Origin: a virus
Reading direction: 5' to 3' (one strand)
IMG/VR virus record: IMGVR_UViG_3300010885_078519
Coordinates: 1-42,276 of that record
Length of the DNA stretch: 42,276 nucleotides
The position numbers and the translations under genes were made by a program. Numbering within the stretch: the first letter of the stretch is position 1; each line of letters begins with the position of its first letter. Of this stretch, positions 1,774-38,420 are shown one piece after another. The notes below the pieces were generated by a model. The model was not told where the DNA came from and searched no databases. It saw only the letters and a program-made list of their open reading frames with translations.

Positions 1774-2163
1774 ATGACTAAGATTTACGTTGCTTCTAGT
1801 TTATATAATAAAACCAATGTTAAAGCTTTATTTAAGTATCTTGCATATTTGCAATGCACTATTACTTATGATTGGACCACCCATGGTGGTGTAAACGATG
1901 AGGTTTCGCTTAAGGAGATCGGACTTAAAGAATATCAAGGTGTCGTCGATTGCGATGTTTTGGTTATGTTAATGCCAGCGAGGCTTGGTTCGCATGTCGA
2001 GCTTGGTATAGCTTTAGCGCTTTGTAAACCGGTCGTGATTATTACTAACGGTGAAGATTTCGAGAAGAAATCATTTTATTTCTTAGACCATGTAAATATT
2101 ATCAGAGATATTGATGCTCTAAAAGGCGCACTTGATAAAATCACGGAACAAGAAAATGACTAA
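1774..2163 (+). CDS. Nucleoside 2-deoxyribosyltransferase-like protein
   Basis: 129 aa, about the size of one deoxyribosyltransferase domain. It opens with KIYVASSLYN, has a central DCDVLVMLMPA strand, and then LGSHVELGIALALCKPVVII. In this family the glutamate of the G-x-x-x-E-x-G-x-A motif, here E76, is the nucleophile that attacks C1' of the deoxyribose. The family swaps bases on deoxynucleosides or hydrolyses deoxynucleotides; the exact substrate cannot be read from the sequence. The start has an AAGGAG site that overlaps the end of the previous gene. It overlaps the next gene by 8 bases and belongs to the purine/sugar cassette ending in the PurZ-like enzyme. Confidence 0.7.
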   Translation: MTKIYVASSLYNKTNVKALFKYLAYLQCTITYDWTTHGGVNDEVSLKEIGLKEYQGVVDCDVLVMLMPARLGSHVELGIALALCKPVVIITNGEDFEKKSFYFLDHVNIIRDIDALKGALDKITEQEND

Positions 2164-2833
2164 TGGCGAACTGCTCACGAGAATCGAAATAGATGTTTTC
2201 CAAGGCAATGAGATCTTAGAATCTTTCGAATTAGCTCACAAGTATCGTTTGCCTGCGATTATAGTACATCCTTCATTAAGCTCTGATGCTTTGGTTTGCA
2301 GAGGCAGATCGAAAGGGAAGTATAAGATCATTACGCCAGTAGATTGGCCTAAGGGTGAAGTCTTTTCTACAGACAAGTTCAAGGGCTTAAGCTTAGATTC
2401 TTTAGAAACAGATGGTTTTGAAATATACATATCGCCAAAAAAGCAAAAGGGTGATATTAGAAAAGAAATTATTTCATGCACTGAGTTTTTAAAGAAGTTT
2501 ATCGGTGAGCTTTGCGAGATAAGATTCGTTATAGGCACGAGGACTAAGGATGAAGCAGATCTAGCCAGTGCCTATGAAGCCTTTCGTGATCTAAAGACGC
2601 CGACTTTAATTCGAGATGATATCACCTTAAAGACTCAGAATTATAAAGCCAATCCAGCTATACACAGCGCTTTTATCACCAACATGTCGCAATTCTTAAA
2701 GTGCCCGATAAAAGTGAGTGGTAATCTCGACTGTATTGAAGATTTACTGGCTTGCGAACCTGCAAAAAGGTTCGGTGCCAGTCTTCAGCAGACCAAGGGC
2801 ATAATTAGAAGCATTAATACGGTGAAAAAATGA
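2156..2833 (+). CDS. DeoC-like (deoxyribose-phosphate aldolase family) TIM-barrel protein
   Basis: 225 aa from the ATG at 2156; an in-frame TTG at 2132 is possible but lies deeper in the upstream gene. The N-terminal part, LAHKYRLPAIIVHPS, and the C-terminal IKVSGN (185-190) followed by RFGASL (205-210) match the layout of DeoC-family aldolases, where the equivalent segments are KPAGG and RFGAS. The usual catalytic KTSTG segment is not evident; around 153-160 the sequence reads RDDITLKT. It may therefore be a divergent aldolase or an inactive relative. It sits directly after a deoxyribosyltransferase-like gene, consistent with handling a deoxyribose product. Confidence 0.5.
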   Translation: MTNGELLTRIEIDVFQGNEILESFELAHKYRLPAIIVHPSLSSDALVCRGRSKGKYKIITPVDWPKGEVFSTDKFKGLSLDSLETDGFEIYISPKKQKGDIRKEIISCTEFLKKFIGELCEIRFVIGTRTKDEADLASAYEAFRDLKTPTLIRDDITLKTQNYKANPAIHSAFITNMSQFLKCPIKVSGNLDCIEDLLACEPAKRFGASLQQTKGIIRSINTVKK

Positions 2834-2994
2834 ACATTATTGAAATATTAGACCAGCTTGATGATGATATCGGTCTTTTATTTAAGACCGAACAATGGTT
2901 ACATTCTGAAAAATCGCGTATGTCAGCTGAAGCTTCTGATATACTAAACAGATTAAAAGCAATTGACAATGCTATAAATTTAAAAAGGTATTAA
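2830..2994 (+). CDS. Small hypothetical protein, 54 aa, possible frameshifted N-terminal part
   Basis: The ATG overlaps the upstream stop (ATGA). The product is a mostly helical 54-residue protein (MNIIEILDQLDDDIGLLF...). No family recognised. Four codons before its stop lies TTTAAAA at 2979-2985 in the right phase for -1 slippage. After slippage the frame stays open to the TAA at 3123-3125 and adds a protein-like tail containing ALRHAYDEGFHGKENL. That tail has no ATG of its own until near its end. Either the gene uses a programmed -1 frameshift or it is a broken longer gene. Confidence 0.5.
   Translation: MNIIEILDQLDDDIGLLFKTEQWLHSEKSRMSAEASDILNRLKAIDNAINLKRY
2979..2985 (+). other. Candidate -1 ribosomal slippery site TTTAAAA
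   Basis: The heptamer fits X XXY YYZ with zero-frame codons AAT TTA AAA. Slipping back one base lets ribosomes read through the TAA at 2992-2994 and continue to 3125, overlapping the first codons of the PurZ-like gene. I could not identify a convincing downstream stem-loop by eye. Confidence 0.35.
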
Positions 2995-3111
2995 ATAATA
3001 TAGACATCGGGGCTTTAAGGCATGCTTACGATGAAGGCTTTCATGGTAAAGAGAATCTTATGCTTGAACTGATAAAATCTTATCTGAATAATTCTTCGGC
3101 GGAGGCTCAAG

Positions 3112-4311
3112 ATGCAACGCGGTAAGTTCAATGTGGTTACTGATGGTCAGTTCGGCAGCACTGGTAAAGGTCTGATAACTTCTTATCTCGCACAAAAATA
3201 CAGACCCGAATTTTTATCAAATACAAACATGGCTAATGCTGGTCATACAGCTGTTAACGTAGACGGTACTGCATATATTGCAAAAGCGATGCCATCGGCT
3301 GCGATCTTGAGGAAATGGCTACCAAATTACAATCCTTGGATAATCATGGGTTCTTCTTCTGCATTTACTTTACTACAGCTGATGAAAGAAGTAGAATTAA
3401 CAGGAAGTATAGATAGGCTTATTATTCACCAAAGAGCTATGGTAATCACGGAAGAGCACAGAGCAAGGGAAAATGAAGGCAAAGACAGCACTAAGCATCT
3501 AGCGAGCACAATGCAAGGTTGTGGTGCTGCCATAGCAGACAAGATACAAAGGCTGCCGGGGACGAAGCTAGCAGTGGATTATGAAGAGTTAAGCAGATTT
3601 GTATTTTGCAAAACGTGGACACGACCTTCTGCCATATTAGAGGACATGTCGCTTTTTGATCCATTTAATGTAATGTGTAAACACCATTGTGAAGCTCTTC
3701 ACGAATATATTGACTGTGTGCTTAGAGCTACGTTCACATTTTTACATGAAGGCGCACAAGGATTCTCACTTGACATCAACCACGGTCATTCATACCCCAC
3801 TTGCACTAGCCGTGGCACTTCTGCAGTTCAAAACTTAGCCGATATGGGGATTTCTCCAAAGTACCTTGGTGATGTTTACCTTGTACTTCGGCCTTATCCA
3901 ATCAGAGTCGGTAATGTGATTGAAGAAGGCGTTCAGAAGGGATATTCTGGCGGAGGGTATGACGATCAGGTCGAAATTGATTGGGAAGAAATAGCTAGAA
4001 AATCAGAGATGCCATTAGAATATGCAACTATCTTAAGAGAAAAAGAGAAAACGACAGTTACAAAGAGGGTCAGAAGAGTATTTTCTTTTTCTAAAAGACA
4101 ACTGCGTGAGGCTGTGATGGTTAATGGCGCTACCAAATTAGCTCTTAATTTTGCTAATTACATCGACTGGACTTGCTTTGCTTCATCATCAAGAGACAAA
4201 CTTACCCCGAAGATCCTTGATTTCATAAAGATGCTTGAGGATGTTGCCGGAATACCTGTAACGCTTGTTGGAACTGGCCCACAATATGACCACGTCATTG
4301 ACCTATCGTAA
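3112..4311 (+). CDS. purZ: PurZ-like adenylosuccinate synthetase (possible N6-succino-2-amino-dAMP synthase)
   Basis: 399 aa with a GGAGG site 9 bases upstream. The catalytic loop reads GQFGSTGKG (12-20), where bacterial PurA has GQWGDEGKG; Ser16 thus replaces the catalytic Asp. This substitution is the described hallmark of phage PurZ, which joins aspartate to dGMP for 2,6-diaminopurine (Z) DNA. Other blocks, NAGHT (42-46), HEGAQGFSL (212-220), PIRVG (263-267) and TTVTKRVRRVFSFS (314-327), agree from memory with PurZ of Vibrio phage PhiVC8. No DatZ, MazZ or DpoZ gene lies in the window, so Z-DNA is not shown. The alternative is an altered adenylosuccinate synthetase for host-type purine supply. 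Confidence 0.8.
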   Translation: MQRGKFNVVTDGQFGSTGKGLITSYLAQKYRPEFLSNTNMANAGHTAVNVDGTAYIAKAMPSAAILRKWLPNYNPWIIMGSSSAFTLLQLMKEVELTGSIDRLIIHQRAMVITEEHRARENEGKDSTKHLASTMQGCGAAIADKIQRLPGTKLAVDYEELSRFVFCKTWTRPSAILEDMSLFDPFNVMCKHHCEALHEYIDCVLRATFTFLHEGAQGFSLDINHGHSYPTCTSRGTSAVQNLADMGISPKYLGDVYLVLRPYPIRVGNVIEEGVQKGYSGGGYDDQVEIDWEEIARKSEMPLEYATILREKEKTTVTKRVRRVFSFSKRQLREAVMVNGATKLALNFANYIDWTCFASSSRDKLTPKILDFIKMLEDVAGIPVTLVGTGPQYDHVIDLS

Positions 4312-5077
4312 TAATTTAGAAGTCTCGGCCTGCATCGACGAACATCATGATAACATCGATGAATCTATAGATCTTATCAGAGACAGCGGATTCAAATCAG
4401 CATCTATACTTAATATAAATGGATTATCACTAACTTCTTTGCCGGACATTACCATAGAAAGAATTAAGAAAAAATTGGCAGATATGCCTATCAATATCGT
4501 AAGGATAGAATTGGGACATGGAAAAACAATAGTACAAAAGGATATAGATAGAGAACTTTCGATCGCATCATATTTTAAAGCCAAAGCTATTCAGATCGGA
4601 ATCGAAAAATCATCATTTATCGATATGACAAGTTTCAATGATTTCATTAGTAAACTATCGTCATTTGCTGTGTCGATGTCGCTTGTACCGGTGTTAGAAA
4701 TGACTGATACGATGTTACTAGATAACACAGAAAGTCTTCAGAAGTTTTTATCGTCACACAAAAGGTTTAAATTATCATATGATCCTTGCCGTTTTATGGA
4801 GAAAAGCAATAAGAATCCTCACGATCGTTGGTTTGAGCCTCTTAAAACTTGTGTTTATAGCATAATTGCTAGGGATTTTAAAACTGGTTCCGGTTTTTAT
4901 CCTGTCGGTCAAGGCGCTACAAATATTATTAAGGCTATAGATGAACATATTTTGAATGGTGGTAAATATGCTATATTTAGACCGTCGCTTGGAAGGCGTT
5001 TCGGCAGTACGATTGGAAAGAAAGAAACGTTTAAATTGGCTTTAGAAGTGTTTAATAATTTATTTAGGAGTATTTAG
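4286..5077 (+). CDS. Xylose-isomerase-like TIM-barrel protein (AP-endonuclease-2 family fold)
   Basis: 263 aa from the ATG at 4286, overlapping the PurZ-like gene by 26 bases; an in-frame TTG at 4265 is less likely. The pattern of a sugar-phosphate isomerase/epimerase barrel is visible: IRDSGFKSASIL early, VPVLEMTD in the middle, LSYDPCRFME, then ARDFKTGSGFYPVGQGATN near the end. The Glu and Asp residues at the strand ends are where this family binds its metal. The substrate is unknown; endonuclease IV-type activity is less likely because the usual set of histidines is not evident. Confidence 0.55.
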   Translation: MTTSLTYRNNLEVSACIDEHHDNIDESIDLIRDSGFKSASILNINGLSLTSLPDITIERIKKKLADMPINIVRIELGHGKTIVQKDIDRELSIASYFKAKAIQIGIEKSSFIDMTSFNDFISKLSSFAVSMSLVPVLEMTDTMLLDNTESLQKFLSSHKRFKLSYDPCRFMEKSNKNPHDRWFEPLKTCVYSIIARDFKTGSGFYPVGQGATNIIKAIDEHILNGGKYAIFRPSLGRRFGSTIGKKETFKLALEVFNNLFRSI

Positions 5078-5742: not shown

Positions 5743-6270
5743 ATGAAGACTACGAAGGTTAATATATCATTGCCAAGGGTTGCTCAAAAGCACGACTATG
5801 ACTGCGGGGCGGCAGCTCTGAAGTCGATCTATGAATACGAACATCCCGAAGATAAAAACGACTTATCAAAATACACCAGGTTATTGGGTAGTACCAAAGG
5901 CAAAGGCACAAGCACACAAGAATTAGTTAGTGCTTGTAAATTACTAGGTCTTAATTTTCAAGAATACCACGGCATGTCTCTTTCTAGACTTCAAAAGGAA
6001 ATTAAAATCGGAAATCCGATACTTTGCCTGATAAGATCAAATGATCATGGTCACTTTGTAGTGGCTATGGGGTGCGACGAAGATAATATCTTTTTTGAAG
6101 ACCCATTCAAAAAGAAAAAAAATAATGGTTATTTGCCGAAAAAAGAATTTTTCAAAAGATGGACAGATGGCGATAATCATAGCGATTTAAAACGATTTGG
6201 ATTGATTTTTAAAGTAACGCGTCCGAAATCGGATAAGAAAATTACAGCCTATAAGATTCTAGGAAATTAA
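5743..6270 (+). CDS. Peptidase C39-like cysteine protease
   Basis: 175 aa. The N-terminal KHDYDCGAAALKSIYE has the family cysteine (C21) and an upstream glutamine (Q15) for the oxyanion hole. GHFVVAMG (H104) and FFEDP (D120) complete the Cys-His-Asp set of papain-like C39 enzymes. In bacteria C39 domains usually cut double-glycine leaders within ABC exporters; this one stands alone, with no transporter. It ends one base before the giant 1982-residue gene, so processing of that protein is a reasonable guess. There is no Shine-Dalgarno site; instead AAATATATT lies right before the ATG, as at 26151. Confidence 0.7.
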   Translation: MKTTKVNISLPRVAQKHDYDCGAAALKSIYEYEHPEDKNDLSKYTRLLGSTKGKGTSTQELVSACKLLGLNFQEYHGMSLSRLQKEIKIGNPILCLIRSNDHGHFVVAMGCDEDNIFFEDPFKKKKNNGYLPKKEFFKRWTDGDNHSDLKRFGLIFKVTRPKSDKKITAYKILGN

Positions 6271-6271
6271 T

Positions 6272-9200
6272 ATGGCAGATCAATCAGATATATCGAGATC
6301 CAATTATGTCGAATTAATCTCTGTAGATGTCGATTCATTACTAATGGTTTGTAATGATAAGTATAAAACTGTTGAAAGCAGTTTACCTAGGATTCTAAAT
6401 GGTATCGATTATCAAGCCTGCGACACGCCCGCTGCTACAGCACCGCCCACCAACAAGTTTATAACTAATGTAGAGAAAATCCCAGGTTCTTTAAGGGAAT
6501 TAATAAGACGACCGAATGTGATTTTGGCATCGTTTAATGCAGTGAGTTTCTTAGGGCAGGATATTAATTTAGACACAACAGCAAGTATACCAACTAACAC
6601 ATCGACTATCCCGAACCTACCTACAATAAATTTTCAAAAATTCGGTACGTCGGTTTCTTGTAGAAAGAATAGTGATAAGTGTTCTATCGACTTACATTTC
6701 ATAGATGCATCTAGTTTAAACACAGGAGTCGCTCCAGGAAGGGCTTTGCTACAAACCAACAAAGCTTTACTTAGTGGTGGGTACGATTATAGGTTAGCAA
6801 TATCGAAAGTCAGGGGTACGCCCGAATATATTGGGTTCTTTGCTGGTAAACAATATTATAAGCTTTCACTGAATACTTTAAAGGGATTTTGGGATAATTC
6901 TTGCGAAAACGATAGGATAATGGTTGATAAATATGCGGCCATGATTTCAGAGCCTGTCAATTCTTCGACTGTTAACATTATCGGTGTTTCGACTGCGAAT
7001 GCGTTTACTTATGGGTTTAATAATCAATCATATGGCAGTCTTAGCAATATAGCAGTTTCATCTATAGTTAGATCTGTCGGGTTTAGGATGGAATTAGCTC
7101 TAACAAGCTCCGGCAAGGCTTTAGATGGAAGTTGGCGGTTTGATTTAGTACCAGCTAGTGGTCTAATGCTTAACCAGATGTTTCGAACTAGTGGTCATAC
7201 TGGTCCTTTAAATTATCAGATATTAATCGATTCGACCAAGAATTTATCAGGTATGGCTGATAATGATTTTTCTTTAAACGGCGCTGACCTCAAGAAAGTA
7301 GAACCAGCTGATTATCTTAGATTTAGATCTTTAGCGACGAAGATTTTTTGCATTTATGTCGACCATCGTTCTACCGGATTGTCGTTAGACGATGATTTTA
7401 ATTATGTCGACTCTGCTGTGGGTGGCTCTGATCAATTCGAAGCATTTCGGCAAGCCATACAATGTGGGCATAAATTTTTGTTTATATTAAATGATGAGAC
7501 AATTAGCGCGTCTCAAGACTATTATAATTTCGTGGCATCGGTTGGTATCGCTAGTGCAGCGGTTGTGCTTATAGATAGCCAAACCGCAACCGGCGGTGAA
7601 TATTTTGACCAAATATCTAGTTCTATTAATACTTTATGTGGTTATGTGGGCGCTAATACGACACCAGGCGTATCTGCCTTTGGTTCAGTTAAAGAATTAT
7701 GGCAAGGTGGGTCTCTGTTTAAAGGTTCGAATTTAAAATCGCTGACCCATTTTAAGATAAACAGCAGTTACACATTACCAGACACATCCTCACGTGCACC
7801 AGAGATTTTAGCAAACAATGAATCTCTGATAAGTTATGATTCAGTGTTTGATAGAGTTTTTTATATAGAGCGGTCTGATGACGCTTCTTATAGGCTTTTT
7901 GCTATGAATATGAAAACGCGAGAGCGTTCTGCAATTGCTTTTTTACCTTTTTTATTTGATAATGTCATAGGATTCGACAATAATGCTCCTTCTGCTCAGG
8001 CGTATGATCCTGGGATGAGGTTATTGTTTATAGGCACGGGTTCTGGACATCTTTATTCTGTGGATGTGATTACAGGAAAATCATCAGAAATAGAAGTTAA
8101 TAGTATAGATATAGTACCTAGGACAGAACGGAGATATCCTTCTATTACTGGTATTGGTATAGGATATGTGCCGTCTTATGATTATAATGGCGTTACGGAA
8201 TTTGCCGGCCATCGCGCTCTATTCGTAGGGTTTAATGCGTCAGGCTCCCAAGACATTAAACGCTATAGTATCCTAAGATCTTATGTTTATGATGTGTCGA
8301 TCTTCAATAAAACAGGCATTGTGACTAAAATTACTCCTATAGTCAGTCTTGATTTACCTATGGCTGGGATGGCAAATCTGCGTAGCTTTAGCTTTATGTG
8401 TGCGCCGATATTTAACTATCTTATAAAGAACTTGCCTGCTACCCCAATTTCAGAATTTGTCGCTAACCAAAAATTGCCAGGGCTTTTGTTGTGCTACGAT
8501 ATTTTAGACACTAATCAGAATTTAATTACGCCAGAGTCAGGCCGATGTATCTCTATAAACCCTTTGATTCTAAATAAAGTGTTTGCGAGTCAGGCAGGGA
8601 TACAATATAATATGCTAGATACTTTTATTATACCAGCATATTATCCTGTCACCAATCGTGCAGACTGGGTAGCGATAGATGATTTTGGCGGTTCTGTTAT
8701 TTGGGCATCGCTTGACACTTCGCCAACCAAAATAATGCTTGATTATTATTATGTGCCCGTACCATCCGCTGGTGTCGATAATAAAGGTATCGAGTTTTTT
8801 CCTTCTATAGCTGTTTTATTAAATAGTTATGAGGTAAGCGGTAATGTGAGCAGTATTTTCTTTAGGGACTCTTTAGAATGTTCAGTCGGTGTCAAGGGTG
8901 TTGAGAGGCATGATTTTGGGCCAAAAAATATGAATTGTTGGGATCTTAATAACAGTTCTGTTGCTACTGTTTCTGATTCTTTTGTTGGTAATGAATTGGT
9001 TCTTAGATATGGCGAATCTGTCAGCAAGAACTATAATCTTGAAGCAGGAAAATATTTTTTAACCATAACCACATCTGATTATCGCACAGGTGCTGACGAT
9101 GCTGGGCAAAATCTTACTGGTTTGGTCGACATTATTACTTCTGGTGGTAGTAGGTTTCATTATTTGCCGGCGCGACTCGACTCGACACCATTAGAAAAAC

Positions 9201-12200
9201 TAAAAGTGCAATCGGTCCCATTCCAAGGCGTTAATCCGACAGCAATTACCACTGCAGGGTCATTGACCTACTTGTTTGACATGCCAGCAGCATTTAATAT
9301 TACGCTTAAGAATAATTTAAAACCTGGGGCGATTACTTCTGAATTTGATGGCTCTAAATTTATACCTAAGGGTGTTGGCGTTTATGGCATTAAGTTATGT
9401 AAGCTGTTGGATCAGACCGTGATTCTAGACGGTATTAAAGATGTAAAATTAAACATTTCTGTCACCGGTATCCCGCGCCAAGAAGTGAATATTTTTTCAG
9501 CTTTTGTTAAAGTAACTTATAGAGATTACGGCAGGCCTAATGTTAAGAAGATGGCTTATCGTCAAGTTATTACTGATGGGAGGTCATCGCCCTATGCTGG
9601 AAGTAATGTTCCAATTGACTGCGATTATAGTGATACATGCAATTATTGGAAGCAGAACGGTAATGGCGGCACTCCTTCTCAATATGTGCTAAACCAAATA
9701 AGGCAAAGTGATTCGCAGATGGAAGCTATCACCAATTTCAAAGTAACCGACGTTACATTATATAACAATTGTATTTGGTGTATACCTGCAGGTTCTAGCA
9801 GATATGACCAAGCTACAGGGAAATACGTTCCAACGGACATCGCAGATACCTATTCGATTTTCTTTGGTGATTTTAAAACAGACATGATTGTAGAATCGAT
9901 AGAATATTTCTTTTTAATGAACAAGATAATTGATCGTAACAACACACCACCAAGTTGTGTTGATAATAAATCAAATTGCAAACCAGATCCTGCTACTGAT
10001 ATCGTTGTTCATCTTGACTATACCAATTGTAATAAAGATACAAAGAGATTAACTCGAACCATTAATATAGGTTCTATATTAGAAGTACCGCAAGATCTTA
10101 GTAGAATATTTCCTAGCAGTAGATGGGACTATATTAGGCCACCAAGCGCAAACGGCACTGCTTTGGGGCCGCCAATCGGTAATGCGATAAACGGGCAAGT
10201 AGGCGTATGGCTATCCTTCAAGGAAATATTAGATAATACGTCGGGAACAGGTGCTGATCAATGCTCCGCGCCGATTTCTAGCCAATTAATATATAATGGT
10301 ACATCGTTAACTTCTGATCGTCCTTCTGGCTGCGATATCCCTAACCCAAAAATAGGAGCTATTAGTCTTTTTGCTAAGAAGGTAAAACCAAATTTTGTTA
10401 TAGCTGACATATCAGAGACTTCAATTACTAATGAAGTGCAGTATATAACTGTCCCGCTGGCGGATGGTGGTACTTATAAACTTACGTTTGCGAAAAGCGG
10501 CGTGACGCAGACTGTGACTGTTCCTTATAATGCAACTGCTGCAGCCTTAAAAACTATATTAGAATCTAATACGCTTATCGGACCAAACAATGTTCTGGTA
10601 ACAGCAGTCGAAACTAGAAGTTTTAGAATCGAGTTCGTCGGGTCATTGAAGGGTATGGCTATTCCTATCATGAAATCGGTTAGCAAAGGGCTTATTGGAA
10701 CTTACTTTGCTTTTACAAATCGTTCTGTGGTCGGTACAAAGAATGAAAGACAAACTATAAGCAATGTTTCTGCTTCTAATAGAGCTTTTACGATTTTTTT
10801 TGATGGCGAGCAAACAGTTACTATTCCTTATGATGCTAGTCTTAATACTGTTAGAGCTGCCTTATTTGCCTTACCGTCCATAGGTATTGGAAATGTAACT
10901 GTTTCGGGCCAGACTACGAATTATGATGGACCATATACTGGACCTTGGCACATAGATTTCGTTGGTTCTATGGCTGGAAAAAATGTATCAAGGCTATCGA
11001 CTTCCAATAAGGATTATGTGGTTTATGTCGATTGGATCGGCGGAATCGGCGTTAACGAAGTACAAAAATTTAGTTATAAAGCGAACTCAGGCAGGTATAC
11101 TCTTTCATTATACAGCCCAGCCGGTGCTTTTTGTACTACAGCACCTATCGAAGCAGCAGCTACGAATAGTGACATAGTGAAAAGTATTATTGATAATTGT
11201 GATTTTTATGCTGCTGAAGATATAGGATTAACATTAGTCCAAAACGGCAATGTTTATGATTGGACTTTGGAATATAAGGGTAAAATGACAGCTCAGCCTA
11301 TAAAGCAGTTGGGCATACAGTCGGTCGATCTAGTTGGCGATGAAGTCACGGTAGTTAGAATTCAAATAGGTGGAGGTAAGCCGCAAAAGATTAGATGGTC
11401 GTATAGTAATGCTACTGCAGGGTTTTATATATTAAAATTCGAATCTGTCGATAAAACCATTTACTTTTCAGATAGGATATATTATAACGCTTCAGCCGCA
11501 GATATACAGAGCGTCCTCGAAAGCATGACTTTATTTGCGCCCAATGATGTTGTAGTTGTTCAGAATGATATGGGTGTTGTGGGGTCGTATGAATACGTGC
11601 TTACTATTAAAAAGAGGATTAGTGCTCTTTTAGTAACAGCTATTTTTGAGACAACATTATTTGGTAGTCCAATTTCATATTATATCGTACCAGACGGGCC
11701 TTATCCATATCCATTACCATATTGTCCGACTCTGACACCCAAAATACATGGTGTAGATGGATTAGTCTGTGTACCATTTCCTCCAGAGGAAGGCGACCCG
11801 TTTGCTGGTGAGTTATGTTGCACCCCAGAGACTATCTCTATTGCTGCGAATAAATCGACATTTTTTAAGATCGAACGCGATTTATTTAGTCCAAGTTTTC
11901 AGATTAACGGCAAGTTGGCTACCGTCGGATCTTTGATGGCCGCCAGAAATTTCAAGAAAAGCATTTATAAACCATATTATTTGGTTTCAAACACCTGCGT
12001 AGATCTCGTTGAGGCTAATTATACCGATGAAATCAAGAGTCGCACTATTATAGTAATTATTAATAAAAAGGTAGATCTCGAAGTTCCTAAAATAAGGATA
12101 ATAAACCGCATCAAGAGTAATTATCCTAAACTTGATTATTGTAGAGCTTTGTCCTTTGAAAAGAATAAAGGCGGACAGGATTTTCCAGATATATTGCCAG

Positions 12201-12220
12201 ATAAAAACTACAATATATAA
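6272..12220 (+). CDS. Giant beta-rich virion or adhesin-type protein, 1982 aa
   Basis: This is the largest gene in the window. No signal peptide or membrane segment is visible. Residues about 510-700 look like beta-propeller blades (LFIGTGSGHLYSVDVITGK). Residues about 1385-1800 hold four diverged repeats of roughly 100 residues, each beginning with E-x-Q and containing a strand pair, a helix and an F-x-G step. The C-terminal 180 residues include a Pro/Cys-rich segment. Such repeats are common in phage tail and surface proteins, so a tail fibre, whisker or other host-contact role is inferred. It is paired with the C39-like peptidase gene and followed by a 74-aa gene. Confidence 0.6.
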   Translation: MADQSDISRSNYVELISVDVDSLLMVCNDKYKTVESSLPRILNGIDYQACDTPAATAPPTNKFITNVEKIPGSLRELIRRPNVILASFNAVSFLGQDINLDTTASIPTNTSTIPNLPTINFQKFGTSVSCRKNSDKCSIDLHFIDASSLNTGVAPGRALLQTNKALLSGGYDYRLAISKVRGTPEYIGFFAGKQYYKLSLNTLKGFWDNSCENDRIMVDKYAAMISEPVNSSTVNIIGVSTANAFTYGFNNQSYGSLSNIAVSSIVRSVGFRMELALTSSGKALDGSWRFDLVPASGLMLNQMFRTSGHTGPLNYQILIDSTKNLSGMADNDFSLNGADLKKVEPADYLRFRSLATKIFCIYVDHRSTGLSLDDDFNYVDSAVGGSDQFEAFRQAIQCGHKFLFILNDETISASQDYYNFVASVGIASAAVVLIDSQTATGGEYFDQISSSINTLCGYVGANTTPGVSAFGSVKELWQGGSLFKGSNLKSLTHFKINSSYTLPDTSSRAPEILANNESLISYDSVFDRVFYIERSDDASYRLFAMNMKTRERSAIAFLPFLFDNVIGFDNNAPSAQAYDPGMRLLFIGTGSGHLYSVDVITGKSSEIEVNSIDIVPRTERRYPSITGIGIGYVPSYDYNGVTEFAGHRALFVGFNASGSQDIKRYSILRSYVYDVSIFNKTGIVTKITPIVSLDLPMAGMANLRSFSFMCAPIFNYLIKNLPATPISEFVANQKLPGLLLCYDILDTNQNLITPESGRCISINPLILNKVFASQAGIQYNMLDTFIIPAYYPVTNRADWVAIDDFGGSVIWASLDTSPTKIMLDYYYVPVPSAGVDNKGIEFFPSIAVLLNSYEVSGNVSSIFFRDSLECSVGVKGVERHDFGPKNMNCWDLNNSSVATVSDSFVGNELVLRYGESVSKNYNLEAGKYFLTITTSDYRTGADDAGQNLTGLVDIITSGGSRFHYLPARLDSTPLEKLKVQSVPFQGVNPTAITTAGSLTYLFDMPAAFNITLKNNLKPGAITSEFDGSKFIPKGVGVYGIKLCKLLDQTVILDGIKDVKLNISVTGIPRQEVNIFSAFVKVTYRDYGRPNVKKMAYRQVITDGRSSPYAGSNVPIDCDYSDTCNYWKQNGNGGTPSQYVLNQIRQSDSQMEAITNFKVTDVTLYNNCIWCIPAGSSRYDQATGKYVPTDIADTYSIFFGDFKTDMIVESIEYFFLMNKIIDRNNTPPSCVDNKSNCKPDPATDIVVHLDYTNCNKDTKRLTRTINIGSILEVPQDLSRIFPSSRWDYIRPPSANGTALGPPIGNAINGQVGVWLSFKEILDNTSGTGADQCSAPISSQLIYNGTSLTSDRPSGCDIPNPKIGAISLFAKKVKPNFVIADISETSITNEVQYITVPLADGGTYKLTFAKSGVTQTVTVPYNATAAALKTILESNTLIGPNNVLVTAVETRSFRIEFVGSLKGMAIPIMKSVSKGLIGTYFAFTNRSVVGTKNERQTISNVSASNRAFTIFFDGEQTVTIPYDASLNTVRAALFALPSIGIGNVTVSGQTTNYDGPYTGPWHIDFVGSMAGKNVSRLSTSNKDYVVYVDWIGGIGVNEVQKFSYKANSGRYTLSLYSPAGAFCTTAPIEAAATNSDIVKSIIDNCDFYAAEDIGLTLVQNGNVYDWTLEYKGKMTAQPIKQLGIQSVDLVGDEVTVVRIQIGGGKPQKIRWSYSNATAGFYILKFESVDKTIYFSDRIYYNASAADIQSVLESMTLFAPNDVVVVQNDMGVVGSYEYVLTIKKRISALLVTAIFETTLFGSPISYYIVPDGPYPYPLPYCPTLTPKIHGVDGLVCVPFPPEEGDPFAGELCCTPETISIAANKSTFFKIERDLFSPSFQINGKLATVGSLMAARNFKKSIYKPYYLVSNTCVDLVEANYTDEIKSRTIIVIINKKVDLEVPKIRIINRIKSNYPKLDYCRALSFEKNKGGQDFPDILPDKNYNI
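10421..11665 (+). repeat. Four diverged in-frame domain repeats in the giant protein
   Basis: The units begin near 10421, 10735, 11050 and 11365, about 315 bases apart. The encoded cores include EVQYITVPL...VPYNATAAAL, ERQTISNV...IPYDASLNTV, EVQKFSYK...APIEAAATNS and PQKIRWSY...IYYNASAADI. The pattern E-x-Q, beta strands, Y-N/D-A and a following helix recurs. The similarity is at protein level only. Confidence 0.65.
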
Positions 12221-16009: not shown

Positions 16010-16807
16010 ATGAATAGTCGAATCGAACGCGTGTTTCCGACCGCTTATCTTATAGGCCAAACTACATTGGACTTAGATCAATTGACAAAGTATTTAGAAG
16101 ATACTGATGCCAAGCCATTTGTTAGAGAGATCGAAGAAGCTAGATTTTCTGGTGTGTCTGATATGGAGATTATTTGTTCTGTATATGCTAAGTTATGTTA
16201 CAAGTCATTCGTTGTTGGGACAAATAAAAACATCACTAGAACAAGATCCATAAAGGATAATATTAAAGGCTGTTTTGATGTCAAGCATGGTAGTATCTTT
16301 GAACATGTATTCTTTAATTTTATTATTAGAGACTGTTCAAGGATTTTTACCCATGAACTTGTTAGGCACAGAGTCGGTACTGCGTTTAGTCAAAATTCTG
16401 GTCGTTACATCAGAGAGGATGTTATACGTGTTGTTCTTAGCCCAGATATAGAGCATTCAAAAAAGATCGACGCTATCTTAGAGAATATCTGCGCCGGTTA
16501 CGATGAATTAGATTATGAATTAGATATCGATTCTACTATAAGGTTCGACGAAAAGAAAAAATTAACCAGTTCTATCAGGCGAATCCTGCCTAATATGTGT
16601 GCTAATGACATAGGTTTTACTGTCAATGTCCGAGAATTAAGACACATACTTTTGATGCGTACTTCCCGCCATGCAGAATGGGAAATGCGGTATGTTTTTG
16701 ACAAGATTTATAAATTATTACTGCCAAAATATGGCGCTTTTTTCCATGGTTTACATGTAGGGCCACATGAGGGATATGTAGAGATTACTGAGGAGCCTTA
16801 TGTATAA
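16010..16807 (+). CDS. thyX: Flavin-dependent thymidylate synthase
   Basis: 265 aa. It makes dTMP from dUMP using FAD and methylene-tetrahydrofolate. The ThyX signature reads RHRVGTAFSQNSGRY (119-133), one residue longer than the usual RHR-x7-S spacing. KHGSIFEH (92-99) and ELRHILLMRTSRHAEWEMR near the C-terminus are the other family blocks. The gene overlaps the dUTPase start by 8 bases. Together they would convert dUTP to dUMP to dTMP. Confidence 0.93.
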   Translation: MNSRIERVFPTAYLIGQTTLDLDQLTKYLEDTDAKPFVREIEEARFSGVSDMEIICSVYAKLCYKSFVVGTNKNITRTRSIKDNIKGCFDVKHGSIFEHVFFNFIIRDCSRIFTHELVRHRVGTAFSQNSGRYIREDVIRVVLSPDIEHSKKIDAILENICAGYDELDYELDIDSTIRFDEKKKLTSSIRRILPNMCANDIGFTVNVRELRHILLMRTSRHAEWEMRYVFDKIYKLLLPKYGAFFHGLHVGPHEGYVEITEEPYV

Positions 16808-17360
16808 AATAACTTTAGAAAGGCTAAATGGTAACGATTTGCCGCTGCCGAAATTCGAGACAAGCGGCTCAGCGTGTTTTGACATATCAGCATGTTTAAC
16901 ACGCCGGATGTCTGAATGCTTACTAAATGGAAGAAAAAAGCATTTTTTATATAATGCATATGCTACAAATTTAAGGAAGTATATCGAAGCACTAGACGAT
17001 ATTACTTCTGAAGAATCAGAAATGTCTCGGTTATATATTCATCCCACCGAAACCATTTTGATACCGACTGGATATAAAGCATCATTTGCTTCAGATTTAG
17101 TGTTAAAATTATATATCAGATCTTCTATCGGTTTAAATGGTCTCAATCTAGCTAACCAAGTAGGGATCGTTGATTCTGATTATCGTGGTGAGATCTTTAT
17201 TTCTATAAAAAACAATTCCGATATCGCCCAAACTATAAACCACGGTGACCGTATCGCCCAAGCAATGCTCGAATGTATAGTTAAACCAGAGATCATTGCT
17301 GGTGTCGTTGATCACACAGCGCGCAATGATGGTGGTTTTGGCTCTACCGGAAGAAAATGA
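16800..17360 (+). CDS. dut: dUTPase (trimeric type) with an insertion
   Basis: 186 aa. All five dUTPase motifs are visible: SGSACFDIS (22-30), RSSIGLNGL (107-115), GIVDSDYRGE (122-131), HGDRIAQAMLE (148-158) and the glycine-rich RNDGGFGSTGRK (175-186). It hydrolyses dUTP to dUMP and pyrophosphate, supplying ThyX and keeping uracil out of DNA. About 45 residues (31-77) are inserted between motif 1 and the strand before motif 2, which the compact bacterial enzyme lacks. Confidence 0.93.
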   Translation: MYKITLERLNGNDLPLPKFETSGSACFDISACLTRRMSECLLNGRKKHFLYNAYATNLRKYIEALDDITSEESEMSRLYIHPTETILIPTGYKASFASDLVLKLYIRSSIGLNGLNLANQVGIVDSDYRGEIFISIKNNSDIAQTINHGDRIAQAMLECIVKPEIIAGVVDHTARNDGGFGSTGRK

Positions 17361-20092: not shown

Positions 20093-22984
20093 ATGGCAGT
20101 ATATCTATCACCTGGTGTATATCCTCGTGAAATAGACCTTTCGCTTGTAGCTTCTAACGCTGGGCCGCTTCGCCCCGCTTTCATCGGTACTGCTCAACGA
20201 GGACCAATAAATACCCCCACGTTTATTTCTGGCGCTGAATCTGCAATCAATACTTTCGGCACACCGTTTGTAGAAAGTTATCTCATGTATGCGGTTCTTG
20301 CATACATGGAAGATGGCGATTCTTGTTATATAATGAGAGTTGGTGTAGAATATTCTACCGCTTTACCAACAAGATTGATAGACATTAGCATCGATAACAC
20401 TCCTAACCGAACGTACGGCTGGGGTCGAATTCCAGTCTTCACTGGAATCGACTACGGTAGAATTAACTTACGTAGGCCAACAGTTGCTGATCCCGTTGTA
20501 TTTCATAATGCCAGCATATCGACACCAATATTCCAAAATGCTACCTCAGAGTCTACTTCTCCCACAACAGAAGCTAGTCTTTCAGTCTCTGGGACTTATG
20601 CCGGTGTCTTGTCAGCTACTTATGTTTTAGAAGTTACTAGTAACACAGATATAAACCCTGCGACCAATTCACATTATAAGATAAACGGTGCCGACTATCG
20701 TGTTGTTGACACTTCTTATGACAGCTCAGATCCGAGCTATCTAGTCGCCGAAGGTACTCTGGTTGATGGTTCGAACACCGGCACTTCTAGCTCTTTTGTG
20801 GTGCAGGGTGCTATACTTTCAGGTATCATCACAGTTAGCGCTGGTCGAATTAGTGCTGGTGATATGTTCCAATTCGAACTAACTCCTAATAATAGAAAAT
20901 TTAGGATCGCTGTCGAAGGCATAGCACATTCATATGATGATGTCATTGGTGCTGGGACTTATGATAATACTGCTGATCTAGTCGATGCTTTAAATAATGT
21001 GCTAGGTACCACTGGCGGCCACGACTTTGTGTTTGTTGCAGCGGTTGATGAATCGGGGGCAGTGGTGCCACAGATAAGATCGACAGCAAACGGCGATAGG
21101 ATTCAAATAGTCAATGGCGAAGCTTGGTCTTTAACGCTTGGAGTCTCGTTGTATCAATATGATATACCACGAGCGCGAGTGATTTCAACCAAGACTGATC
21201 CTTATGACATAACCACCGACAATAACCAATTGGTTTTAAAGATAGTATCTCCTTCTTCGAGCTTTACTATTACCGCAAATCTGGTAGCTGGTTTAGCTCA
21301 GACAGCCGATAACATTGCTGGCCAATTAAATGTCTTTGGTACGGTGGCTGGATTGGATTATTATGAATCCTTTGCTATTAATGTACCGAATTCTTCCGGT
21401 ATGGTAATTGTAATTGCTACTACGCCGAACAACGAATTAGATTCTTTGTTTTTACTAGCTAATTATACTAATATTAAATCTTTACGCTTTACTGAAGAAG
21501 TCGGTTTGCTTTACCCTTATGGTGGAGCATACCGCGGATTTTCAGACGAACGTGTTCTAATGCCTGTGGAAAGCGATGATCCTACAGTACCTCTATCATG
21601 TGTAACAGATCCTACTTCTGACGAATGTGCCCAAGATGCTGCGTATTATCAGAGCATTGTGGGTTGGTTTGTCGGTACTTCTGCTGGAACGTGGGTCGGA
21701 AAATATGACGCAGTTAGAGACACGTATTCTGGCTTTACGGTCGGTGTACAGCTTGTTAATACTAACAATGCTTCAACAAGCCAGAAATATATTATTACTG
21801 TTAAAGATTCGTCTGGTTATGCTGTCGATTCCATATCTGATGTTTCATTCGATCCTGCTGATGCTCGTTATATCGCCAATATCATTAACCCTGGTTCATC
21901 GATAGGTGGTAATAATGGCAATGGGACCATAAATTGGATCGAACGTCCTTCCTATGTTGGTGACGGCGAGATCAGGCAACCAGCCTCTTTTAGCAATAGA
22001 CAGTTTAGAGGCATGGCTAATGGTATTCCAACCGACCCAGCAGATTCAGCGACATACCTTGATGCTGCAGTCATTGGAAATCCCGCCACAAGTTCTGGAC
22101 TTTATGCTTTCCAAAACCCAGAAGCTTTTGATATTATGTTACTTGCTATTCCTGGGTTTAGCTCTGGTGCTGTGATCGGATCTGCGCTGCAGCTTTGCGA
22201 AAATCGAGGCGATGTTTTATTCTTAGTAGATCCTCCAATTGGACTAAGACCACAGCAGGCTATTGATTGGCATAATGGTCTTCTCTATGATGACCTTGAT
22301 CATGCAATTAATAGTTCGTATGGTGCTTTGTATTGGAGTTGGCTAAGAATCTTTGACCAATTCAGCGCTGAAGAACGCTGGGTACCTCCTTCTGGCCATG
22401 TCGCAGGTATTTTCTCAAGGACTGCCCAGAATACTGAAGTTTGGTTTGCACCAGCCGGTCTACGACGTGGTAGGATTCAAACAGCCCTTGCTGTTGAATA
22501 CAACCCCACCCAGTCCGAAAGGGATTTGTTATATGGATCTGGTAATAGTGTTAACCCAATTGTTAGCTTCGCTCAGGATGGCATAGTTGTCTGGGGCCAG
22601 CGAACACTTCAACGTTCACCAACTGCTCTCGATAGAGTTAATGTTAGAATGTTAATGATTTATATCAAGAAGAATTTGACCTCCATTTTACGACAGTTCA
22701 TTTTCGAACCTAATGACCGCACTCTTTGGGCGCAGGTTTTTAGTGTAGTAAACCCTTTCCTTTCGGAGATTGCTTCAAGAAGGGGTCTAACTGGCTATAA
22801 AGTGGTCGTTGATGCATCAAACAATACTCCTGAAAGGATTGACAGGAATGAACTGTGGGTTTCGGTGTTCTTACAACCTACCAAGTCCGTCGAATTTATT
22901 GTTCTAAACATGGCTGTATTGAAGACTGGTGCTTCTTTTGCAGCAGAAGAGTCTTTGGCTGCTGCTGGCCTTGTAACTATCTAA
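20093..22984 (+). CDS. Contractile tail sheath protein (gp18-like)
   Basis: 963 aa, against about 660 for T4 gp18. The N-terminus YLSPGVYPREIDLS, the IGTAQRGPINTP turn and the C-terminal part (RMLMIYIKKNLTSILRQFIFEPNDRTLW, then ELWVSVFLQPTKSVEFIVLNM) are standard sheath hallmarks. The C-terminal domain drives subunit linking and contraction. Additional beta-rich domains at about residues 160-480 probably decorate the outer surface. A GAGGAG site precedes the start. The three tail tube genes follow. Confidence 0.93.
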   Translation: MAVYLSPGVYPREIDLSLVASNAGPLRPAFIGTAQRGPINTPTFISGAESAINTFGTPFVESYLMYAVLAYMEDGDSCYIMRVGVEYSTALPTRLIDISIDNTPNRTYGWGRIPVFTGIDYGRINLRRPTVADPVVFHNASISTPIFQNATSESTSPTTEASLSVSGTYAGVLSATYVLEVTSNTDINPATNSHYKINGADYRVVDTSYDSSDPSYLVAEGTLVDGSNTGTSSSFVVQGAILSGIITVSAGRISAGDMFQFELTPNNRKFRIAVEGIAHSYDDVIGAGTYDNTADLVDALNNVLGTTGGHDFVFVAAVDESGAVVPQIRSTANGDRIQIVNGEAWSLTLGVSLYQYDIPRARVISTKTDPYDITTDNNQLVLKIVSPSSSFTITANLVAGLAQTADNIAGQLNVFGTVAGLDYYESFAINVPNSSGMVIVIATTPNNELDSLFLLANYTNIKSLRFTEEVGLLYPYGGAYRGFSDERVLMPVESDDPTVPLSCVTDPTSDECAQDAAYYQSIVGWFVGTSAGTWVGKYDAVRDTYSGFTVGVQLVNTNNASTSQKYIITVKDSSGYAVDSISDVSFDPADARYIANIINPGSSIGGNNGNGTINWIERPSYVGDGEIRQPASFSNRQFRGMANGIPTDPADSATYLDAAVIGNPATSSGLYAFQNPEAFDIMLLAIPGFSSGAVIGSALQLCENRGDVLFLVDPPIGLRPQQAIDWHNGLLYDDLDHAINSSYGALYWSWLRIFDQFSAEERWVPPSGHVAGIFSRTAQNTEVWFAPAGLRRGRIQTALAVEYNPTQSERDLLYGSGNSVNPIVSFAQDGIVVWGQRTLQRSPTALDRVNVRMLMIYIKKNLTSILRQFIFEPNDRTLWAQVFSVVNPFLSEIASRRGLTGYKVVVDASNNTPERIDRNELWVSVFLQPTKSVEFIVLNMAVLKTGASFAAEESLAAAGLVTI

Positions 22985-23007: not shown

Positions 23008-23598
23008 ATGCCAGGATTTAATATTGGACAGATCGGTGGTGGGATGTTTGGAGCAAATTCGCCTTCAAACGTCATGGAAACTAGAAGGACATACCGATGG
23101 TACTTCGAAACCATCGGCCGAGGCGGGTCAGCTTGGACTCCCAAGGAGCTGTTGGTATTACAAAAAGCCAAGAGACCAACATTTAAATTCTCTGAACTAG
23201 ACATGCAGCACCAACAGGAAAAGGCTTATTACGCTGGTAAGCAAGAATGGGAAGCATGTACTTTGACTTGGTATGATGTAGAACAAGATCCTAATATATC
23301 TCAGGGCTTGTATGTTTGGCTAGAGTCAGTTTGTCGCTTGGACACTATTGGCGTAAACCACCCTAAGAATTATAAAAAGACAGCAACCCTTAAATTGGTT
23401 GATGGGGCGGGTAATACCAATGAGCAATGGGATATGTATGGTACTTGGCCAACCAATTTTAATTGGCAAGAACTAGACTATACCGGCGATGCTATCTTGA
23501 CTTGCGATGCGACCATGCGATACGATAGAGCTATCCGCAAGTGCGCTAATCCTCAAATTCCTGGTCCTTTGGGCTCGAATTGCTCACAGCCTAGCTAA
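23008..23598 (+). CDS. Tail tube protein 1 (gp19-like)
   Basis: 196 aa, with AAGGAG before the ATG. MPGFNIG at the start, METRRTYRWYFETI, KRPTFKF, and LTWYDVEQD with a final LTCDATMRYDRA are typical of T4 gp19-like tube subunits. It is immediately after the sheath gene and has two diverged paralogues behind it. It is the best match to the family and therefore probably the main tube subunit. Confidence 0.9.
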   Translation: MPGFNIGQIGGGMFGANSPSNVMETRRTYRWYFETIGRGGSAWTPKELLVLQKAKRPTFKFSELDMQHQQEKAYYAGKQEWEACTLTWYDVEQDPNISQGLYVWLESVCRLDTIGVNHPKNYKKTATLKLVDGAGNTNEQWDMYGTWPTNFNWQELDYTGDAILTCDATMRYDRAIRKCANPQIPGPLGSNCSQPS

Positions 23599-34781: not shown

Positions 34782-35099
34782 ATGGCATTTCCTTTAAGCC
34801 AAACTTCGAGATATATTCACACACCATTAATTTCTTTCGATGGAAAAGAAACATATGGAAGATGGGTAGAGATGGCCGTGTTTAAGACTAGGCCTCCGGC
34901 CGATCAAATAACTAAGTACCAAGTCCCTGCCAATTATGCAGGGAGGATAGATCTAGTCGCCTTAGATGTATATAATGATGTTAATCTTGGGTGGGTCTTA
35001 GTGGCTTTTAATAATGCTAGAAATGTGTTTGGATGGCCAAGCCCTTTAGATGTAATAGAATGCCCTAATTTATCAACTGTATTTAAGGAACTCCTGTGA
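34782..35099 (+). CDS. Baseplate wedge protein (gp53/LysM-like)
   Basis: 105 aa, with AAAGGGG 8 bases before the ATG. The core TKYQVPANYAGRIDLVALDVYND, followed by GWVLVAFNNARN and a closing segment with I-x-C-P, is the gp53/LysM-like pattern found in T4-like and other contractile baseplates. It overlaps the start of the spike gene by 4 bases, so the two are probably translated together. Confidence 0.65.
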   Translation: MAFPLSQTSRYIHTPLISFDGKETYGRWVEMAVFKTRPPADQITKYQVPANYAGRIDLVALDVYNDVNLGWVLVAFNNARNVFGWPSPLDVIECPNLSTVFKELL

Positions 35100-37294: not shown

Positions 37295-38016
37295 TTATAA
37301 GATTTCCAACAGGGTTTTACTCTAACGTACTACCAATTGATTTAGCGCAGCCCGGAAACATTACATTTACAGTTAGTGGTGGTAAACCGCCGCGTGCTAG
37401 TTTATTGTTTCCTCAAATTCCAACTGGTTTATTCTATAAAAAGAGAGCTGGGCTAAACACCAGAGACTATCTCACACAACCAGTTTATTTTGTAAGCACT
37501 GCAAATTCAGAAACGATTAACGACAATCGCTTGCAATACGAAATAGGTGAATATATTGAAGTAGGTGTGCCTATACCATTTGCTAGCGATGTTTCAGAGA
37601 TCGATTCAATTTATTCTAGCGTTCATAATCTAAATCTTTTTGACTATATGGAGATGGGTCTAAACAAAGCCGAGATTGATTCGATCAATGCTAACAGTAA
37701 GCAGATATATTTAACGTTAAATAATCAATTTAACGACTTTAAAGCTTTATTGATCACCCAAGATGTTGAGATAAACCGATATCAAAAGACCATCAATGAG
37801 ACAGAAAAAACGCTGTCTGCTGTCGAAACTATGATCAATAATTTATCGACTGGTTTTGCCAGAGATGAACTAATTAAAACCAAGGATAGTTTAATAAGTA
37901 GCCTTGACACTAATCGACAAGACCAAGAAAAAACGATTCTAGCTAGAGATGAGAATAGAAAAAACATGGGCACTATACTTGAAGAATTAAGAAACCTTGC
38001 TATGGTGGTTAAATAA
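37291..38016 (+). CDS. Hypothetical baseplate-region protein with coiled coil, 241 aa
   Basis: The ATG at 37291 overlaps the spike gene's stop (ATGA); a longer frame from 37255 is unlikely. The N-terminal half is beta-rich (MIIRFPTGFYSNVLPID, then NITFTVSGGKPP). The C-terminal half is a long coiled coil (EINRYQKTINETEKTL, then LARDENRKNMGTILEELRNLAM). No family recognised. It lies between spike and gp25 genes, so a wedge or spike-associated role is likely. Confidence 0.6.
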   Translation: MIIRFPTGFYSNVLPIDLAQPGNITFTVSGGKPPRASLLFPQIPTGLFYKKRAGLNTRDYLTQPVYFVSTANSETINDNRLQYEIGEYIEVGVPIPFASDVSEIDSIYSSVHNLNLFDYMEMGLNKAEIDSINANSKQIYLTLNNQFNDFKALLITQDVEINRYQKTINETEKTLSAVETMINNLSTGFARDELIKTKDSLISSLDTNRQDQEKTILARDENRKNMGTILEELRNLAMVVK

Positions 38017-38420
38017 TGGCTATTAACCCCAAGATTAATTATTATGGATATAATCCTCCGTTTATAGGTGGGCCTTCTGGGATATTATCAAGACAGGAAG
38101 ATGATAAATTAGTTAAAAATGATTTATTGCAATTATTGTTGACGCTCCCTGGCGAGCGGGTGATGATGCCTGATTTTGGCACTGACTTGAGAGCCACTAT
38201 TTTTGATCAGCTTGATGACTCTACTATTGAAATGCTTAAGCGCGACGTGTCTCAAGCTATAGCGCAATATGAGCCTAGGATAAGCGTAAAAAGCATTTAT
38301 TTTAGACCTGATTATGAACAACATGGTTTAGCTATCAGAATAGTATATGTTATGCTAACTGAGCCCGCTTTAATTCAAAATTTAGACACATTTATAAACA
38401 ACGGTGGTCAAAATGGATAG
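38016..38420 (+). CDS. Baseplate wedge protein gp25-like
   Basis: 134 aa, starting at the stop of the previous gene. The family core LLTLPGERVMMPDFGTDLR is clear, followed by a helix (STIEMLKRDVSQAIAQYEPRI) and a closing strand. GPW/gp25 proteins form the inner wedge and the starting ring of the sheath. It overlaps the wedge gene gp6-like by 8 bases. Confidence 0.85.
   Translation: MAINPKINYYGYNPPFIGGPSGILSRQEDDKLVKNDLLQLLLTLPGERVMMPDFGTDLRATIFDQLDDSTIEMLKRDVSQAIAQYEPRISVKSIYFRPDYEQHGLAIRIVYVMLTEPALIQNLDTFINNGGQNG

Follow-up and report, generated by a model that had tools for sequence, protein, structure and literature searches.

A PurZ-type synthetase of a new clade in large-to-jumbo myoviruses: possible Z-DNA synthesis with a split DnaE and no detected DatZ

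Does the synthetase gene at 3112-4311 (+ strand, 399 aa) of a 42,276-nucleotide stretch of viral DNA, here called the window, serve the synthesis of Z-DNA, or does it encode an ordinary adenylosuccinate synthetase (PurA)? Other phages use PurZ to put diaminopurine (Z) in place of adenine in their DNA. The initial annotation had called its product a PurZ-type synthetase on account of an Asp-to-Ser change in the catalytic loop GQFGSTGKG, and had placed it in a myovirus with a T4-like tail that might carry a Z genome. The change is borne out by alignment. In the P-loop, DGQFGSTGKG, Ser16 is aligned to the catalytic Asp13 of E. coli PurA. The ATG of the gene is preceded by GGAGG, and the dN/dS of purZ against the 84%-identical relative G003 is 0.020, which excludes a chance origin of the frame.

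The protein matched Pfam PF00709 (adenylosuccinate synthetases) with E = 2.3e-33 and PHROG 1211, "2-aminooxy adenylosuccinate synthetase", with 1.9e-63. Its top NCBIfam model is PurZ, NF038379 (228.8 bits, 7.9e-68), and the second is archaeal-type PurA, PRK04293 (211 bits). The score lies under the curated NF038379 cut-off of 300 bits, as do those of PurZ from L010, L011 and Flavobacterium phage MaF61; the cut-off is a naming threshold, not a biochemical feature. The similarity to phiVC8 PurZ is 35.5% over residues 7-351 (E = 2e-47). The best PDB sequence matches are 6fm1 and its kin (9.6e-44) and S-2L PurZ, 7odx (2.1e-37); 6fm1 is phiVC8 PurZ (PMC8342488). Among 50,697 phage records, 209 matched at 1e-5, none of them at least 60% identical, and the top-ranked, from Bacillus phage vB_BpsS-140 (annotated), is 36.7% identical. 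A contig scan with two patterns found no bacterial or archaeal relative. PurZ frames usually have about 370-400 aa; those at L168:6869-10507 and L169:8384-10639 have 1212 and 751 aa, respectively. The L168 match (contig G032) falls in three pieces within one frame, suggesting an intein.

To separate PurZ from PurA we used an alignment of 74 rows, comprising the window PurZ, 34 viral relatives, nine canonical PurZ, four PurZ0, vB_BpsS-140, MaF61, 22 archaeal PurA (of 80), E. coli PurA and the Asp-type PurA encoded by the 735-kb phage LR756501. Ser occupies the Asp13 site in all viral rows except the PurA of that 735-kb phage. In S-2L numbering, S23, T273 and Q308 (N297 in phiVC8) are among the PurZ-only residues described as contacting substrates (PMC8342488). 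The window enzyme carries the trio Ser/Thr/Asn at these sites, against Asp, Gly/Ala and Asp in the PurA rows; PurZ0 rows share the Ser and the Thr and have Asp at the third site. Sites 305, 306 and 308 spell N-F-N in both the window enzyme and phiVC8 PurZ; PurA has T or S at the first, any residue at the second and D at the third, and PurZ0 has T/S-M/F-D. Loop position 244 is occupied in the window as in most PurZ, unlike PurA and PurZ0. Some relatives vary: L011 and L014, which are members of the same clade, differ from the window in having Gly at K277, and the N-F-N site is T-F-N in L156, N-F-D in L160 and N-F-Q in L163.

The same 74 rows were used for a quick maximum-likelihood tree with SH-aLRT support only. 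The 24 PurA rows (22 archaeal and two other) split from the 50 viral rows with support 100. PurZ0 diverges first among the latter, and the other viral rows are united at 98. The window PurZ sits in a 24-row clade of its own (support 97); the fork joining this clade to the group with canonical PurZ has a support of only 89. Thus, in the phylogeny that the initial annotation had proposed as a check, the window protein clusters apart from PurA and among PurZ. Since it lies outside the canonical clade of nine references, we filed it as a new clade of PurZ type. Taken together, residues and tree make a strong case, from sequence, for a PurZ-type enzyme. PurZ0 and PurZ are both treated as dGMP enzymes in the available text of PMC12884076, and as these two groups bracket the window PurZ, dGMP is the favoured substrate.

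The phage itself is large. Contig G001 (274,625 bases) matches the window at 99.965% identity over 42,277 bases; to G003 the window is 84% identical along its whole length, and contigs of relatives measure up to 408 kb. The myovirus assignment stood up, as the window encodes, all on the + strand, a contractile tail sheath protein at 20093-22984 (PHROG 23, 1.8e-84), a tail tube protein at 23008-23598 (PHROG 4542, 1.1e-19), a baseplate hub-like protein at 35096-37294 (PHROG 430, 4.9e-7, residues 25-106) and two baseplate wedge proteins at 38016-38420 (PHROG 261, 9.4e-25) and 38404-40032 (PHROG 219, 1.2e-25). We take the wedge proteins to be gp25-like and gp6-like, respectively, in T4 terms. A C39-type cysteine peptidase gene (5743-6270, 4.1e-16) lies between purZ and a large late gene at 6272-12220. 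Nucleotide metabolism is represented, also on the + strand, by a flavin-dependent thymidylate synthase, ThyX, at 16010-16807 (PF02511, 3.9e-37), a dUTPase with the motif VDSDYRGE at 16800-17360 (PF00692, 2.4e-17) and the start of a class II-like ribonucleotide reductase at 40972-42276, which continues past the window. The G001 copy of the reductase, at 124976-128356, contains RNR_Alpha (7.8e-29), RNR-II insertion, LAGLIDADG_3 and Hom_end domains. G001 also has a second dUTPase homologue, g96 (82059-82487, motif IDATFTGE), adjoining a thymidylate kinase-like gene. IDAGY, the form in DutZ references, is also found in ordinary dUTPases, so the g96 motif cannot decide a DutZ identity.

How firmly purZ belongs to this lineage was judged with a neighbouring marker. 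Upstream of purZ on the + strand are g177 (5-775), which is syntenic and has no family match in Pfam, NCBIfam or PHROG, and g176 (777-1766), a syntenic MptE/DUF115-like gene (PF01973, 1.1e-5, below cut-off) that served as lineage marker. All 34 contigs found through g176 carry purZ. In 31 of them it falls inside the flanks that were fetched (E at most 1.8e-49), and in L013, L161 and L162 elsewhere on the contig. A readable GSxGK-type motif with Ser is present in 30 of the 31 flank copies; the pattern was unmatched in L200. The PurZ proteins of g176-bearing phages fall on three tree branches, the largest being the 24-row clade; L191, L195, L196, L199, L203 and L204 share a branch with MaF61, and L183 shares one with vB_BpsS-140. 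This spread may reflect gene replacement or long-branch error.

DnaE-C and terminase, markers distant from the locus, gave 22 contigs, picked from 20 and 80 loci. Nine have purZ, including all six longer than 150 kb (one copy is cut by the contig end). The other 13 have none, and seven of these measure 46-116 kb. As candidates for lineage members lacking purZ, six of the 13 (100-146 kb) were inspected. They lack any match to g176 or g177 and none covers the locus, although one of the six, G033, starts next to it, within g178. Thus a lineage member that has the locus and lacks purZ was not found among the contigs examined, which are possibly incomplete. The Moraphages were considered as the same lineage, and the available text of PMC12619734 contains no adenylosuccinate or deoxyribosyltransferase term.

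The usual partners of PurZ were a different matter. The initial annotation had proposed searching the genome for datZ, mazZ and dpoZ; none was detected in the 275-kb contig G001 (possibly incomplete), and nearly all relatives that were searched gave the same negative result. The search at E 0.1 used profiles of DatZ, of both MazZ types, of both DpoZ groups, and of DmtZ, DUF5664 and PrimPol. Across G000-G012 there was no match to any of them, save a DpoZ match of 0.098 to a PolA-like gene of G008; for DpoZ the contigs covered were G000-G014. The control was lenient, as each profile recovered the phages it was built from. In a wider search, over the 28 PurZ contigs, the DatZ profile recovered phiVC8, S-2L and SH-Ab; the MazZ-1 profile recovered S-2L and SH-Ab and missed phiVC8, whose MazZ is of type 2. 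Over these 28 contigs the DatZ profile gave one real candidate, in G026 (7.4e-9), and a match in G008 (0.0062) that contains stops. The G026 candidate is an HD-domain protein (L447:4462-5064) that also matches 5'-deoxynucleotidase at 1.5e-4. MazZ-1/DUF550 was found in none of the 28 contigs, and neither MazZ type in G000-G012. A canonical Z cluster, with DatZ, MazZ-1 or MazZ-2 and a DpoZ-type polymerase I, was thus looked for and not found in G001. The 43-kb contigs L014 (G013) and L015 (G014) contain PurZ-type genes together with a DNA polymerase A matching DpoZ profiles, and the PurZ of L014 groups with the large-phage clade. A Lyase_1 gene is present in six of the 28 contigs, none of them G001; five named genes match purB best, two of them above the curated cut-off, and the sixth contig is G027.

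This absence counts against a system in the style of phiVC8 or S-2L. It is not absolute for G001, which may be incomplete, and it is indecisive for Z-DNA as such for two further reasons. The available text of PMC12884076 describes PurZ0 phages as using DutZ, DmtZ and DUF5664 instead, and S-2L is described as having no PolA-type polymerase, which other Z phages have (PMC8342488).

G001 has a polymerase of another type. A split DnaE is encoded at G001:212351-217741 (L036). One piece, g209, comprises the PHP domain and the start of the palm, and the other, g213, about 1.27 kb away, supplies the remainder, with PDIDID. The break in the palm falls between the RFLAPSRGGY stretch and PDIDID, small frames intervene, and KWD stands at the third Asp site. 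A DnaE family member is present in 23 of the 28 PurZ contigs, each with a match ending at profile position 98-99, as in G001; the two parts are 57 kb apart in G005. The five contigs without DnaE are the two of 43 kb with DNA polymerase A and fragments of 98, 100 and 177 kb. DnaE is likely the replicase of G001, which also encodes a DnaB-type helicase, RecA, gp32 and an SbcC/SbcD-like pair (SMC_N and metallophosphatase matches). A 399-aa PolA-like protein (226486-227685) has IHDS at motif C and no exonuclease match, and its homologues occur in eight of eight distant relatives. Homologues of an actin-like volactin gene (G001:210134-211657, 7e-38) are likewise present in all eight. We know of no family C polymerase that makes Z-DNA. 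With the usual helpers missing and a polymerase of a different type, the altered alphabet may be written by a new route.

The genes beside purZ offer a hint of what such a route might contain. The gene at 1774-2163 (+ strand, 129 aa) encodes an enzyme of the nucleoside-deoxyribosyltransferase (NDT)/DNPH1 superfamily (PF05014, 1.7e-5, under cut-off) with profile matches to CMP N-glycosidases (5e-7) and NDTs (5e-4). Its AF2 model (pLDDT 94.3) retrieved NDT, DNPH1, BcmB and MilB in Foldseek (best E = 3.3e-5). Tyr5 and Glu76 are invariant and Asp61 nearly so (alignment A3, n = 11), which gives the protein both the superfamily fold and its catalytic Tyr, Asp/Asn and Glu. We propose that it is a deoxynucleoside-monophosphate N-glycosidase or transferase. 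The gene lies within the fetched flanks of 17 of the 34 g176 loci, and the NDT Pfam family was found at E 0.001 in 21 of the 28 PurZ contigs, nine above cut-off. The NDT-family enzyme DmtZ of PurZ0 phages is a dAMP hydrolase and transferase in the available text of PMC12884076. An identity with DmtZ was considered and found no support: there was no DmtZ profile match at E 0.1, and hhalign to three DmtZ sequences reached a probability of only 60.6%.

The next gene, at 2156-2833 (+ strand, 225 aa), has no Pfam match and encodes a TIM barrel of the deoxyribose-5-phosphate-aldolase (DERA) fold, found in the fetched flanks of 33 of the 34 g176 loci. Its AF2 model has a pLDDT of 87.9, and of the 50 listed Foldseek matches almost every one is a DERA (best E = 1.3e-10); the profile of alignment A2 gave only chance-level matches to PDB sequences. 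The residue register to DeoC comes from a weak hhalign to E. coli DeoC and the strand order of the model. In this register Arg153, invariant in 16 of 16 sequences (A2), stands at the strand-6 position of the Schiff-base Lys, Lys186 takes the place of DeoC Lys201 and, by eye, Glu89 that of Asp102. As the Schiff-base lysine is missing, a normal aldolase is probably not encoded, and the ordinary DERA reading was set aside. Against G003, the NDT-like gene has a dN/dS of 0.043 and the DERA-like gene one of 0.007. The pairing of an NMP N-glycosidase with a deoxyribose-phosphate fold hints at the removal of a dNMP, which by analogy with DmtZ would be dAMP. Between the DERA-like gene and purZ, a 98-aa frame, g173 (2830-3125), is open in G001 and G003 and closed in the window through a one-base length difference near 2981, which may be an assembly error. 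Directly after purZ comes a conserved, syntenic gene for a sugar-isomerase-like TIM-barrel protein (4286-5077, + strand, 263 aa), with profile matches to AsbF (1e-3) and a putative sugar isomerase (5e-3) and no NCBIfam match.

From these observations we consider it reasonably probable that the locus encodes a functional PurZ from a new clade, that the gene belongs to the core set of a lineage of large-to-jumbo myoviruses, and that the resulting dZTP enters DNA via DnaE while dATP is lowered without DatZ. We infer the substrate, the product, the nucleotide flow, DnaE as replicase and the presence of Z in the DNA as follows. The window PurZ would join Asp to dGMP with ATP, giving N6-succino-2-amino-dAMP. 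The host adenylosuccinate lyase (a phage PurB in some relatives) and host kinases would convert this product to dZTP. The split DnaE, perhaps with the small PolA-like enzyme, would insert dZTP opposite T, so that Z would replace part or all of dA. For the exclusion of dATP we offer a hypothesis only: the NDT-superfamily enzyme may remove or swap the base of dAMP, keeping dATP low without DatZ, and its DERA-fold neighbour may handle the sugar phosphate. Z-DNA in the window phage is, in our judgement, probable. That the whole, Z-DNA copied by a split DnaE with dAMP removed by an NDT-like and aldolase-fold pair, forms a third, independently assembled system is a more tentative proposal, and we lean somewhat against it.

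Other readings of the locus must be weighed against this one. The gene might encode an auxiliary PurA that makes adenylosuccinate from IMP and raises the adenine nucleotide pool during infection, since it belongs to the same superfamily, archaeal PurA is its second NCBIfam model and the 735-kb phage LR756501 does carry an Asp-type PurA. Against this stand the Ser for Asp in all aligned members of the clade, the PurZ-type Thr and N-F-N, and the position among PurZ; on residues and tree position PurA was rejected as the assignment of 3112-4311, and we consider the auxiliary role highly improbable. It is also conceivable that an active PurZ supplies dZ nucleotides that disturb the host's pools or inhibit its enzymes, the phage's own DNA keeping to A-T-G-C. 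In favour of this, DnaE is an ordinary replicase, and no Z-specific polymerase was detected. The occurrence of purZ in 34 of 34 marker contigs and the strong purifying selection on it fit a function in the genome better, and the chance we allow this reading is slim.

A closer rival keeps PurZ active and has dZTP only partly incorporated, or used as the precursor of another modified base on which the TIM-barrel and DUF115-like neighbours act further. Neither the dATP-removing DatZ nor the Z-selective DpoZ was detected, several conserved neighbours are without assigned function, and the profile match of the 4286-5077 product is sugar-isomerase-like, all of which speak for it; but some g176 loci lack the neighbour downstream of purZ, and some lack the NDT-like gene. 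We regard this reading as unlikely.

If PurZ does serve Z-DNA in this lineage, Z genomes would span a wider range of sizes, virion types and polymerases, myovirus contigs of 275-408 kb with a split DnaE being added. It would be the first Z-genome system with a cellular-type replicase, would raise the question of how a bacterial-type replicase copes with dZTP, and would add a dATP-draining route distinct from DatZ. Z-DNA has been described for phages of the Siphoviridae and Podoviridae in the available text of PMC8599892, and among the literature matches listed there is no report of PurZ in a jumbo phage or myovirus.

Compared with known systems, the window PurZ resembles those of Vibrio phage phiVC8, cyanophage S-2L and Acinetobacter phage SH-Ab 15497 in its Ser for Asp, its T273 and its filled loop (S-2L, SH-Ab), and it lies closer to them in the tree than to PurZ0. 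It shares the N-F-N site with phiVC8, whereas S-2L has Q. The differences are an identity of 33-36%, a separate clade, the records of 39-45 kb as against contigs that measure 275-408 kb and encode the tail of a myovirus, and the DatZ, MazZ and DpoZ that were not detected in the window phage. The PurZ0 phages (Gordonia phage Ghobes, Arthrobacter phage Wayne) have in common with it an NDT-superfamily enzyme and the dUTPase family, and PurB annotations occur both in Ghobes and in part of the window lineage. However, PurZ0 has T/S-M/F-D and no loop residue, and in the window phage the NDT-like gene does not match DmtZ and no DpoZ-1 was detected. DeoC shares its fold with the 2156-2833 product, in which invariant Arg153 replaces the Schiff-base Lys. 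The PurZ-like protein of vB_BpsS-140 is alike in its Ser, in a dUTPase annotated in that phage and in 36.7% identity; it differs in Ala at T273, Gly at K277 and a small tree branch of its own, and the whole record (L099) gave no DatZ or MazZ-1 match.

The cultured Flavobacterium phage MaF61 (PQ858689, 167,814 bp) has a Ser-type PurZ relative on another tree branch. It encodes PurB, a guanylate kinase, an HD_3 hydrolase, MazG and a family B polymerase, and its PurZ adjoins the terminase. The HD protein aligns poorly to DatZ beyond the HD motif (DatZ profile 2.2e-4). Membership of MaF61 in the window lineage was rejected, as searches at 1e-3 gave no match to DnaE, volactin or g176 and TerL and DnaB are only distantly similar. 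PMC13269007 describes MaF61 as having a contractile tail and myovirus morphology by TEM, and its main text does not mention "adenosuccinate", the name under which the synthetase is annotated. With this cultured phage the question of Z-DNA in myoviruses can be tested directly.
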